From Rubrobacter taiwanensis (GTDB lineage: Bacteria; Actinomycetota; Rubrobacteria; Rubrobacterales; Rubrobacteraceae): DNA of 64,000 bases. A model generated the notes under the pieces. The model was not told the DNA's origin and searched no databases. It saw nothing but the letters and a program-made list of their open reading frames with translations. The first letter of the stretch is position 1, and every line of letters begins with the position of its first letter. Positions 15,463 to 38,296 of the stretch are shown one piece after another. Position numbers and translations under genes: made by a program. The DNA is taken from the NCBI RefSeq assembly GCF_004337705.1, contig NZ_SKBU01000006.1:124001-188000 (forward strand), written 5' to 3'.

Positions 15463-15475
15463 TAAAATATCTCCC

Positions 15476-15565
15476 GGAATGCGTGGGCCTGGTGGCCCGG
15501 CCGGTCTTCAAAACCGGCAGGCGGCCGAGACCCGGCCGTTGGTGGTTCGATTCCCCCGCATTCCG
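15476..15565 (+). tRNA. selC: tRNA-Sec (anticodon TCA)
   Basis: The acceptor ends GGAATGCG (15476-15483) and CGCATTCC (15557-15564) pair fully, with discriminator G at 15565; CCA is not encoded. The anticodon stem CCGGT/ACCGG encloses loop CTTCAAA with UCA at 15508-15510. The D-arm has a 4-nt TGGT loop and a stem of 5 bp plus a possible T-G pair. The long variable arm is CGGCCG/CGGCCG with a 5-nt loop. The T-loop is TTCGATT. Only 12 nt lie between T-loop and discriminator, one fewer than the 13 of canonical bacterial tRNA-Sec, and the T-stem has one T/C mismatch. The position after selAB supports the call. Confidence 0.95.
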
Positions 15566-35292: not shown

Positions 35293-35661
35293 TTACTCAG
35301 CTACCCCCGTGCCGGAGATCCAACGCCACATTCTTTTCAGAGGGCCTTGCGTTCCGGTATCGGGGGGTGTTGCCGGACGGGGCCGGGTTACGCCCGGCGG
35401 GAAGGATGGTGTTATCTCCTCCGGGTTGCCGCCCCTCTCCCGGAGTGCGTCCTCCAGTTCCCCGATCTCCGCTCTCAGTTGCGGAGCGACTTCTCCCTCG
35501 AGGCGCTCCAGCTCGCCGGCCAGCCGATCATACTCCTCCCGGCCCTCACCGTACTCCTCACCTTCGGTAGCTTCCCAGCCTCTCAAGACCCCGTATGCGG
35601 CCTGCTGCTGAGCCAGCGCCAGAACGAGCTCGTCCGGCCGTTCCTCCAGGGTGCCGCCCAT
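35293..35661 (-). CDS. hypothetical coiled-coil protein, end of the fluoride-switch operon
   Basis: 122 residues. Residues 5-75 are charged and helical (AQQQAAYGVLRGWEATEGEE, EYDRLAGELERLEGEVAPQL), probably a coiled coil; the tail is Pro-rich (PPGVTRPRPATPPDTG) ending in WRWISGTG. No family recognised. It is the last gene of the minus-strand run that begins at the antiporter. Confidence 0.55.
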   Translation of the reverse strand: MGGTLEERPDELVLALAQQQAAYGVLRGWEATEGEEYGEGREEYDRLAGELERLEGEVAPQLRAEIGELEDALRERGGNPEEITPSFPPGVTRPRPATPPDTGTQGPLKRMWRWISGTGVAE

Positions 35662-35672
35662 CCTCAGTTTGG

Positions 35673-35771
35673 TTATCCTGGGCTGCTCCAGGCTTCGAGC
35701 GCCTCCCGAAGCCGCTCCAGCAGTTCCGGAGGCACCTCTACACCGAGCTCGATCAGCCTAGCGTTCCTCAC
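35673..35771 (-). CDS. possible 32-residue peptide overlapping the DUF6062 gene end
   Basis: GTG 35771 lies inside the last codons of the DUF6062 gene in another frame; the product is RNARLIELGVEVPPELLERL plus REALEAWSSPG. It looks like a small amphipathic helix-turn-helix and fills the gap between two genes of the operon. Too short to be certain. Confidence 0.35.
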   Translation of the reverse strand: MRNARLIELGVEVPPELLERLREALEAWSSPG

Positions 35772-36453
35772 CGGCGACCCACCTCACCGCCCGCCAGGGA
35801 GCGTCGCGCTCCCGGCCCCAGGGCTCGTCCCGGAAGCGGTAGTCGTTGTGCCGGACGTACCGCTCCAGGTCGGTCTGCAGCCCTTCGAGTACCGTCCGGA
35901 CCATCCCGACCAGCGTATCCGGGAGGCTCCCGCCCGCCAGAGCGGAGGCCCGGCTGAGGTGAAGCGCGCACACGGTGCCCGGTCCTCCGAGAAGCTCCTC
36001 CGGAGGAGTGTCTTCTGTGGTCTCCAGAAGTGCTCGCAGGTAGCTCTCCTCGGCCTCCTTTTCGGCGGCGCAGATCATACACCCCGTTCCCGGCTCGACG
36101 AAGAGAGGCTTTGCATCCTGATGGCCCAGCAGCGTCTTCAGTGCCGAAGATGGTTTGGAGCTGGAAGCGTCCTCAAGCACCTCCCGCAGCTCCCGCACCA
36201 CCGCCCGGTAGAGGATCGCGGCTCCCAGTCCGGAGCGCATCTTCAGCATCCGGTGGGCGTGCCGGTTACAGAAGCCGAGCGAGTGCCGCATCTCCTGCTG
36301 CACGTCCGGGTCATTGACGAGTTCGTAGAGCAGGTTGTCCAATCGGGTGCGCCCGTCCCGCTCCACCAGCCGGCACACCGCGCAGCCGCTCTCCTCCAGC
36401 GCCTCCTCAAGCCGGAAGCGCAAGGCGCTCTTTCTGCCGGGCGATCCGTTCAC
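35758..36453 (-). CDS. DUF6062 family protein with duplicated Cys/His module
   Basis: A 231-residue protein without signal peptide. Cysteines and histidines fall in two equal sets: C24-x2-C27...C62-x2-H65 and C125-x2-C128...C162-x2-H165, offset by 100-101 residues, which looks like two copies of a metal-binding module (GCAVCRLVE/GFCNRHA and GCMICAAEK/VCALHLS). The rest is helical. The ATG overlaps the uspA stop. Function unknown; it is the third gene downstream of a fluoride riboswitch. Confidence 0.85.
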   Translation of the reverse strand: MNGSPGRKSALRFRLEEALEESGCAVCRLVERDGRTRLDNLLYELVNDPDVQQEMRHSLGFCNRHAHRMLKMRSGLGAAILYRAVVRELREVLEDASSSKPSSALKTLLGHQDAKPLFVEPGTGCMICAAEKEAEESYLRALLETTEDTPPEELLGGPGTVCALHLSRASALAGGSLPDTLVGMVRTVLEGLQTDLERYVRHNDYRFRDEPWGRERDAPWRAVRWVAGEER

Positions 36454-36884
36454 CCGGCGTGCTCCCGTTTGGGGACTATCAGGACCGGGCAGGGGGAGTA
36501 GATCGCTATCCGGCGCGTCACGCTGCCGATCATGAAGCGTTCGAGCGCGCTGTGCCCCTTGCGGCCGACCACCATCAGGTCGAAGCCCTCGTCCCGGGCG
36601 TACTCTATGAGGGCCTTCGCGGGATGCCCGTGGATGACCTCCCGCTCGTAACTCACCCCGAAGCGCCGGGCGGCCTCGTCCAGGGCGCCGCGCTTGCGCT
36701 CGAAGAACCGGGCAGCATCCTCCAGCGACCCCTGATACTCGCCCACCGTCTCGACGTAGTCCGGGATCTGGGCCACGGAGACCACGCGCAGTTGAGCTCC
36801 GAACTTCGCCGCCATCTCGGCCGCCTTCTCGAAAGCCTGCGCGGCGGTCTCGGACCCATCCCAGGCCACCATTATCTTCTTCAT
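36450..36884 (-). CDS. universal stress protein UspA family
   Basis: A 144-residue single-domain Usp: KKIMVAWDGSETAAQAFEKA at the N-terminus, GHPAKALIEYARDEGFDLMV, and the ATP-binding signature VGRKGHSALERFMIGSVTRR (G-x2-G-x9-G-S). It should bind ATP. ATG overlaps the antiporter stop (ATGA). Usp proteins often partner transporters of this kind, sometimes as a fused domain, so a regulatory role on the antiporter is plausible. Confidence 0.92.
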   Translation of the reverse strand: MKKIMVAWDGSETAAQAFEKAAEMAAKFGAQLRVVSVAQIPDYVETVGEYQGSLEDAARFFERKRGALDEAARRFGVSYEREVIHGHPAKALIEYARDEGFDLMVVGRKGHSALERFMIGSVTRRIAIYSPCPVLIVPKREHAG

Positions 36885-38035
36885 TCTCTCTCCTCCTTGG
36901 CAGCGCGGAGCTTCTTTATCTCCTCGAAGGGCAGGAAGAACCGCTGGGCGATCAGGGTCGGGATCACGGCGGTCGCGATCACCACCGTCACCAGCACCGA
37001 GTACTGCTGCTGGGTGATGAGACCGTTGTCCAGGCCGTACAGCGCCGAGATGGTCCCGAAGGTGAGCCCGGTGGACATCAGGAGCGTGGTGTACATGCTG
37101 TTTCTGAAGGAGTAGCCGTAGAAGAGGGTCACCGGCATCACCCCGATGAACTTGGCGGCGACCTTCACGAAGAAGAAGACCAGGATCGCCCAGAAGCCCG
37201 CGACGAGCGCCCCGAACGACACGAACAGCCCGGCCCGGATGAAGTAGAAGGGGGTGAGGAAGGTGAAGGTGAGGGTGCGCATCCTCTTCGCCAGCTCCTC
37301 CCGGCTCTGGAAGGTGTCGGCGAGCACCAGCCCGGCGAGGTAGGCCGGCAGCACGGCCTCGCTGCCCGCGAGGCTGGCCAGCGCTCCCAGACCGAAGAGC
37401 ATGAGAAGCAGGTACTTGAGCTCCGGCTCGCTCACCCGCTCGCCGTAGCGCCGGAAGAACCAGCGGGTGAACCGGGGCAGCACGACCAGCACGGCCGCCG
37501 TGGCGGCTATGAACACCAGCATCTCCACGCCGAACCCGGCGAAGATGAGCCCCAGAGCGGCCACCGTGCCCAGGTCGGTGACGAAGCAGGCGGCCAGGAT
37601 CACCTTCCCGATCTCGCTGCGGTTCAGCCCCGTCTCCACCATCACGGCGTAGACCACGGCGACCGAGGTAGTGGAGAGGGCGATCCCGGCGATCAGGGCC
37701 GCGTTCGTATCCCAGCCTGAGATCCAGTACGCCCACGCCGCAGCGCCCAGAAACGGGATCAGGAACGACAGGGACCCGATCAGGAGGGTCTCCGCGAGCT
37801 TATTGCGCAAGACCTCGGTGTCTATGTCCACCCCGGCCAGGAAGGTCAGCGCGACGGCTCCCACGCCGGCCAGGAAGGCCACCCACTCGGGCTCCGGCAC
37901 ATCGAAGAGGTTGCCGGCCAGTATGCCGACCGTGATCTCGATCAGCGCCACCGAGATGCCGAGCCGGATGGAGATGAGGCTGGCCAGAAGCGCCAGACCG
38001 ACCCAAATCGCCGCAACAAGGTAGATGTTCTCCAC
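36881..38035 (-). CDS. cation:proton antiporter (CPA2-like) under a fluoride riboswitch
   Basis: About 384 residues from GTG 38035, preceded by GAGGAGAG; a longer frame from 38143 would run through the riboswitch. Eleven to thirteen helices: NIYLVAAIWVGLALLASLIS, IEITVGILAGNLF, LTFLAGVDIDTEVL, ALIAGIALSTTSVAVVYAVM, ILAACFVTDLGTVAALGLIF (the V-T-D-x-G motif of CPA2 exchangers) and FYFIRAGLFVSFGAL. Antiporters of this kind are known members of fluoride-riboswitch operons. It presumably helps survival under fluoride by moving protons against cations; fluoride itself is not its proven substrate. Confidence 0.92.
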   Translation of the reverse strand: MENIYLVAAIWVGLALLASLISIRLGISVALIEITVGILAGNLFDVPEPEWVAFLAGVGAVALTFLAGVDIDTEVLRNKLAETLLIGSLSFLIPFLGAAAWAYWISGWDTNAALIAGIALSTTSVAVVYAVMVETGLNRSEIGKVILAACFVTDLGTVAALGLIFAGFGVEMLVFIAATAAVLVVLPRFTRWFFRRYGERVSEPELKYLLLMLFGLGALASLAGSEAVLPAYLAGLVLADTFQSREELAKRMRTLTFTFLTPFYFIRAGLFVSFGALVAGFWAILVFFFVKVAAKFIGVMPVTLFYGYSFRNSMYTTLLMSTGLTFGTISALYGLDNGLITQQQYSVLVTVVIATAVIPTLIAQRFFLPFEEIKKLRAAKEERE

Positions 38036-38096
38036 GCGTTCTCTCCTCGACCGTCCTCGCGCTCTTCGCTCTGCGGCAGCGAACCCCGGAGAACGC

Positions 38097-38135
38097 AAAA
38101 AGGCCTCTACCCGCGGCTCGCCGCAAGTAGAAGCC
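38097..38135 (-). terminator. intrinsic terminator of the fluoride riboswitch
   Basis: On the minus strand a hairpin GGCTTCTACTTGCGGC / CCGCGGGTAGAGGCC (loop GAG) is followed directly by TTTTT (38101-38097). Its 5' arm overlaps the 3' end of the aptamer (CTTCTAC), so ligand binding should prevent its formation. Expression ON with fluoride is expected. Confidence 0.88.
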
Positions 38136-38179
38136 ATCAGCATCCCGTGAGATGCGGTTATGGGTGAGCCTCATCACCC
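38127..38179 (-). ncRNA. fluoride (crcB) riboswitch aptamer
   Basis: Minus-strand RNA reads GGGTGATGAGGCTCACCC, then ATAACCGC, a GCATC/GGATGC stem, CTGATGGC and TTCTAC. This matches the crcB consensus (GGxGAUGxxGxUCxCC, AACCGC, CUGAUGxCUxCUAC) in every conserved block, including the pseudoknot halves. It lies 92 bp upstream of the antiporter GTG. A -10-like TATAGA precedes it on the same strand near 38210. Confidence 0.95.
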
Positions 38180-38296
38180 TCGGCGCTTTTCGCGCGCCTC
38201 CGATACTCTATAACAGGCGCCGGGGAAGGGCAAGGCCGGCGATTTTTTGAGAACATACCTCTCTGTCCGAACGGACCCGGCGCAGAACGGGAGGCC

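Follow-up and report, generated by a model that had tools for sequence, protein, structure and literature searches.

A fluoride aptamer ahead of antiporter, uspA and DUF6062 genes in Rubrobacter taiwanensis, and the recurrence of DUF6062 in fluoride loci

Fluoride riboswitches have on repeated occasions given leads to what uncharacterized proteins do. The locus described here lies on a stretch of 64,000 nucleotides from Rubrobacter taiwanensis (contig NZ_SKBU01000006.1, positions 124,001 to 188,000; hereafter the window) in a genome, G000, of 3.0 Mb that is 99.7% complete. It raises the question of whether a protein of the family DUF6062, encoded behind a fluoride aptamer together with an antiporter and a universal stress protein, takes part in the response to fluoride, and if so in what capacity.

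Aptamer, terminator and gene order

The following features were recognized in the window, all of them on the minus strand:

38121-38187, (-), fluoride riboswitch aptamer (RF01734), 46.5 bits with the covariance model
38102-38135, (-), intrinsic terminator as putative expression platform, 15-pair stem followed by TTTTT
36881-38035, (-), CPA2-type cation/proton antiporter gene, GTG start, 384 aa, PF00999 E 5.6e-41
36450-36884, (-), UspA universal stress protein gene, 144 aa, PF00582 E 4.8e-34, 118 bits
35758-36453, (-), DUF6062 protein gene, GTG start, 231 aa, PF19538 77 bits (cut-off 27)
35670-35768, (-), truncated 5' end of helical protein gene A, 33 codons, 45% over 20 aa
35293-35739, (-), helical/coiled-coil protein gene B without its 5' end, 52% over 116 aa
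34491-35297, (-), MFS transporter gene, truncated and frameshifted, PF07690 E 7e-13

An earlier note on this DNA had claimed a crcB aptamer upstream of the antiporter, and the RF01734 search agrees with it, since the match is full-length (model positions 1-64) and well above the cut-off of 34 bits, with an E-value of 9.7e-10 for the whole window. The overlapping terminator that had also been claimed is present, its stem running from 38135 to 38102 and its 5' arm being the 3' block of the aptamer, GGCTTCTAC, with a z-score of -4.8 for the terminator stretch. The pseudoknot between the first loop and the 3' block pairs as AGGC/GCUU in the window and as GAGC/GCUC, AAGC/GCUU and GAGU/ACUC in relatives, compensatory changes that were judged by eye and not by a formal count. 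In the usual ON-switch layout, the fluoride-bound aptamer keeps the terminator from forming and transcription reads through; judged from these elements, riboswitch control of the run from the antiporter through uspA to DUF6062 is very probable. A second RF01734 match in the genome (C17, 23 bits, below the cut-off) falls inside a called gene and was taken as chance. The window also carries a selenocysteine tRNA gene (70.6 bits) at 15475-15565 on the plus strand.

The antiporter passes for PF00999 with 141 bits and reaches 128.5 bits (E 3.4e-37) with the CPA2 model TIGR00932, below the cut-off of 238 for that model, and its orthologues in three relatives likewise come with an aptamer. The ATP-binding motif of UspA is intact (GRKGHSALERFMIGS; G-2x-G-9x-GS, residues 107-121), as in the ATP-binding type. 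Antiporter and uspA, and uspA and DUF6062, each overlap by 4 bp as had been described, and each of the three genes is supported by its family. No CrcB/Fluc or CLC-F fluoride exporter gene is present in this operon, the antiporter being neither. The genome does have a tandem CrcB pair, at G000:C9 42069-42838, for which the search gave no fluoride aptamer, and it lacks a CLC gene.

The description of the locus as a five-gene run with two more reading frames behind DUF6062 had to be revised in the light of matches to relatives. The first of these frames, of 33 codons, overlaps DUF6062 by 11 bp and matches the N-terminus of the gene that follows DUF6062 in G001. The second is an open frame of 122 codons at 35293-35661 with an ATG at 35661, and read from about 35739 it matches residues 27-142 of a 166-aa protein at L038 (E 7e-37). 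The corresponding families A and B overlap each other in intact fluoride operons and are intact and adjacent in G025-G027, following in G025 and G026 a weak aptamer match of about 26 bits, below the cut-off. The idea that the two small frames are one frameshifted gene was dropped, since the initial 33 codons correspond to the beginning of A; most simply, a deletion has fused the beginning of A with the body of B. The MFS gene behind this fused remnant is 87% identical to its counterpart in G011 over residues 2-191 only, and its frame is lost afterwards. The operon therefore consists of three intact genes and an eroded tail.

The gene types of this tail, A, B and MFS, all recur in other fluoride operons. 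Family B was found in 8 confident genomes, always in fluoride-type loci, and of the 9 MFS family members in the class, 8 are located in fluoride loci, the ninth (G001:C44) falling outside the check. Members of this recurring family, at L041 979-2154, L038 494-1684, L068 4538-5728, L069 5509-6702 and L126 5006-6196, carry the signature TYEGAR or ASEMVYP and form a candidate fluoride-related transporter family.

DUF6062 and fluoride aptamers in other genomes

PF19538 and RF01734 were searched in the same 396 Actinomycetota genomes, of which 15 carry DUF6062, at 17 places altogether. At 9 of the 17 (G000, G001 twice, G045, G092, G125, G212, G224 and G340) a same-strand aptamer lies 78 bp to about 2.2 kb upstream, the called genes in between sharing the orientation, against a chance expectation of 0.018 cases within 3 kb at 0-7 aptamers per genome (Poisson P 6e-22; P 5e-14 when only six families are counted). 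The co-occurrence of DUF6062 and aptamer by genome gave a Fisher P of 2.7e-5. G291 is a tenth case, its riboswitch contig ending inside a dynamin-like gene and leading, through an overlap of 51 nt, to the end of the contig with DUF6062. With G155, G157 and the second half in G340 excluded as untestable by contig ends, 10 of 14 places are linked, in six taxonomic families, so that the association with fluoride riboswitches elsewhere, on which the earlier note had made its proposal depend, holds. No aptamer was found at the DUF6062 places with flanking sequence in G018, G023, G196 and G378, and G023 still pairs DUF6062 with an antiporter. In G018, a c-di-GMP-I-GGC riboswitch at L035 1752-1832 faces away from the DUF6062 gene. 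A contig scan with the Rubrobacter profile found only four close relatives.

Outside the phylum, an out-of-sample search of plasmid records found a single DUF6062 relative (PF19538 38 bits), which the Thermomicrobium roseum megaplasmid carries. The fluoride aptamer in front of it scores 29 bits (E 5e-5) and so stays under the cut-off of 34 bits, a value that an inserted hairpin may have lowered. It ends about 40 bp before the DUF6062 start codon, thus DUF6062 opens that operon, and in G092 and G125 too no other gene stands between it and the aptamer. A terminator (GCCTCTGCT...AGCAGAGGCTTTTT) overlaps the T. roseum aptamer, an AGGAGG ribosome site is present, and the gene after DUF6062 encodes a HEAT-repeat protein, a partner type shared with G212, G340, G125 and G291.

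Recurrent companions at aptamer loci, several of them named from reading sequences and not from a family search, are CrcB, DUF190, HEAT/zinc-ribbon proteins, a dynamin-like GTPase (PF00350), the coiled-coil proteins A and B, MFS transporters and MutS-like proteins, and further hydrogenase-4/FHL-like subunits, enolase and histidine phosphatase. Genes for the dynamin-like GTPase follow fluoride aptamers in several families of Actinomycetota (L071, L077, L072, L107 and L108). The aptamers themselves may be clustered: G001:C39 2396-20684 (L032, L033) holds six of the seven of its genome within 18 kb, one below the cut-off, with hydrogenase-4/FHL-like subunits, a sulfatase-like gene, MFS, a MutS-like pair and DUF6062 as neighbours, and G077:C89 (L119) holds five in about 9 kb, one below the cut-off, together with fragments that resemble a diverged DUF6062 (CTAC...CAWH) and are unrecognised by Pfam.

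Relation to described fluoride operons

UspA had been thought undescribed as a fluoride partner, a view that the literature contradicts: in Enterobacter cloacae FRM, uspA belongs to a riboswitch-controlled operon and is up 120-fold with fluoride (PMC5533749). That operon, ppaC-uspA-eno-gpmA-crcB-orf5249, shares with the window a fluoride riboswitch, a multigene operon and uspA, but has neither antiporter nor DUF6062 and instead contains CrcB and copies of fluoride-inhibited enzymes (PMC5533749). In the accessible text of PMC11139923, Na+/H+ antiporters rank second in frequency among the classes associated with the riboswitch. An antiporter as first gene after the aptamer is common to that class and the window; DUF6062 and the coiled-coil remnants go unmentioned in that text. 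The crcB-motif gene list in the available part of Weinberg et al. 2010 (PMC2864571) includes mutS, K+/Cl- transport and formate hydrogen lyase; the aptamer is common to that list and the window, and related islands contain genes of MutS-like and hydrogenase-4/FHL-like type, whereas DUF6062, the dynamin-like GTPase, HEAT/zinc-ribbon proteins and the MFS family of the window are absent from the part available. The claim that DUF6062 is undescribed as a fluoride partner stands in so far as no paper in the literature searched names it, and none there links dynamin with a fluoride riboswitch. Subscription papers, including the original fluoride-riboswitch gene tables, lay outside the search, therefore priority is not certain.

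The DUF6062 protein and its possible role

By its score and by all of its invariant ligands, the window protein is a member of DUF6062 (PF19538), a family without known function; it is intact and shares 52-54% identity with relatives. Two CxxC...CxxH sets (C24 C27 C62 H65 and C125 C128 C162 H165) are invariant in an alignment of 14 diverse members that takes in T. roseum, and with the start Met, one Leu and one Asp these eight Cys/His make up all eleven invariant columns, which bears out the description as a double Cys/His protein with residues of metal-ligand type. The N half aligns with the C half as its homologue (HHalign probability 96.9%), therefore DUF6062 is an internal duplication of a helical unit, each copy having one site of metal type. 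AlphaFold2, given five sequences, returned a model that is all helical in secondary structure and otherwise unusable, with a pLDDT of 44.7, and because of this value a fold search was omitted. A profile search of solved structures yielded no solved relative and two weak matches, the better of which, ribosomal protein eL42 (E 0.013), was taken as cysteine-driven chance; no family match beyond the DUF was found.

The best explanation overall, to which we give a probability of roughly 0.6, is a fluoride-induced operon with DUF6062 as a metal-binding helper. It draws on sequence evidence of several kinds, namely the aptamer, the terminator, the gene overlaps, the linkage of DUF6062 to fluoride in several families and one further phylum, and the invariant ligands. 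As HF enters and fluoride rises, the aptamer, bound to Mg-fluoride, would prevent its 3' block from pairing into the terminator, and RNA polymerase would then read through into antiporter, uspA and DUF6062; both fluoride binding and read-through in R. taiwanensis are thus putative. The antiporter would counter cytoplasmic acidification, and the ATP-binding UspA would work alongside it as a stress regulator. DUF6062 may be a soluble, all-helical protein with two structural metal sites, the metal being probably zinc, and would assist in a fluoride-response module to which, in other genomes, HEAT/zinc-ribbon, dynamin-like GTPase, MFS and coiled-coil proteins also belong.

That DUF6062 has a role in fluoride biology of some kind is likely, judged from genomic linkage, and the sensing or repair of fluoride damage to metalloenzymes, as proposed earlier, is possible. 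Co-residence in fluoride islands leaves its molecular role unfixed. Its likeliest job would be to shield Mg-dependent phosphoryl-transfer enzymes and GTPases from inhibition by fluoride-metal complexes, or to restore them after it, a role that we favour because GTPase, enolase and phosphatase genes accompany DUF6062 elsewhere. Since an enzyme with a Mg-phosphoryl site is missing from the window's own operon, the argument for shielding comes from these neighbours in other genomes, and as a named biochemical role the protection of phosphoryl-transfer proteins is put forward only tentatively.

The neighbours also allow the main rival explanation, according to which DUF6062 is the adaptor of a complex for membrane repair or remodelling, formed with the dynamin-like GTPase, coiled-coil and HEAT proteins, that answers envelope damage by HF. 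The dynamin-like gene precedes DUF6062 in G224 and G291, behind the aptamer, and in G157, at a contig end; it lies in the same aptamer cluster as DUF6062 in G125 and G045, and the limitation of coiled-coil family B to such loci fits as well. However, DUF6062 has no adjoining dynamin gene in the window, in G001:C43, in G092 or in T. roseum; on this reading only the DUF6062 adaptor and the antiporter would remain in the window. We regard this explanation as rather unlikely. CxxC...CxxH sets can also hold [2Fe-2S], and given the strict invariance of its ligands DUF6062 might be a redox or Fe-S sensor or regulator and not a zinc protein, tuning the activity of UspA or of a transporter; constant redox or Fe-S partner genes are, however, missing from the loci, and with no family match beyond the DUF this seems improbable. 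Alternatively, DUF6062 could be a passenger with a general stress role unrelated to fluoride, since fluoride islands collect stress genes, and indeed several DUF6062 genes have no aptamer and some of the islands contain many unrelated genes. But DUF6062 comes first after an aptamer of its own in three distant lineages, and linked loci with varying partners are found in six families and in a further phylum, hence we hold a mere passenger to be just as improbable. Least likely is that transcription stops after the antiporter and another promoter serves uspA and DUF6062: selection on distal expression may be relaxed because the 3' end of the operon is eroded, but the genes overlap by 4 bp, no terminator-like site was found at either junction and no promoter-like site on the operon strand from antiporter to DUF6062, and DUF6062 has stayed intact.

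The statistically overwhelming link across phyla gives the DUF6062 family a concrete physiological setting. DUF6062 is probably an overlooked part of bacterial fluoride survival, because it stands behind fluoride sensors in many unrelated bacteria. We see about an even chance that it is the hallmark of an unrecognised riboswitch-controlled module in Actinomycetota and Thermomicrobia, made up of DUF6062, HEAT/zinc-ribbon protein, dynamin-like GTPase, coiled-coil A/B and a dedicated MFS transporter, whose protective mechanism would be other than export. The linkage suggests that fluoride defence may have, besides export, pH balance and spare enzymes, a branch of GTPase, HEAT and metal-binding proteins.
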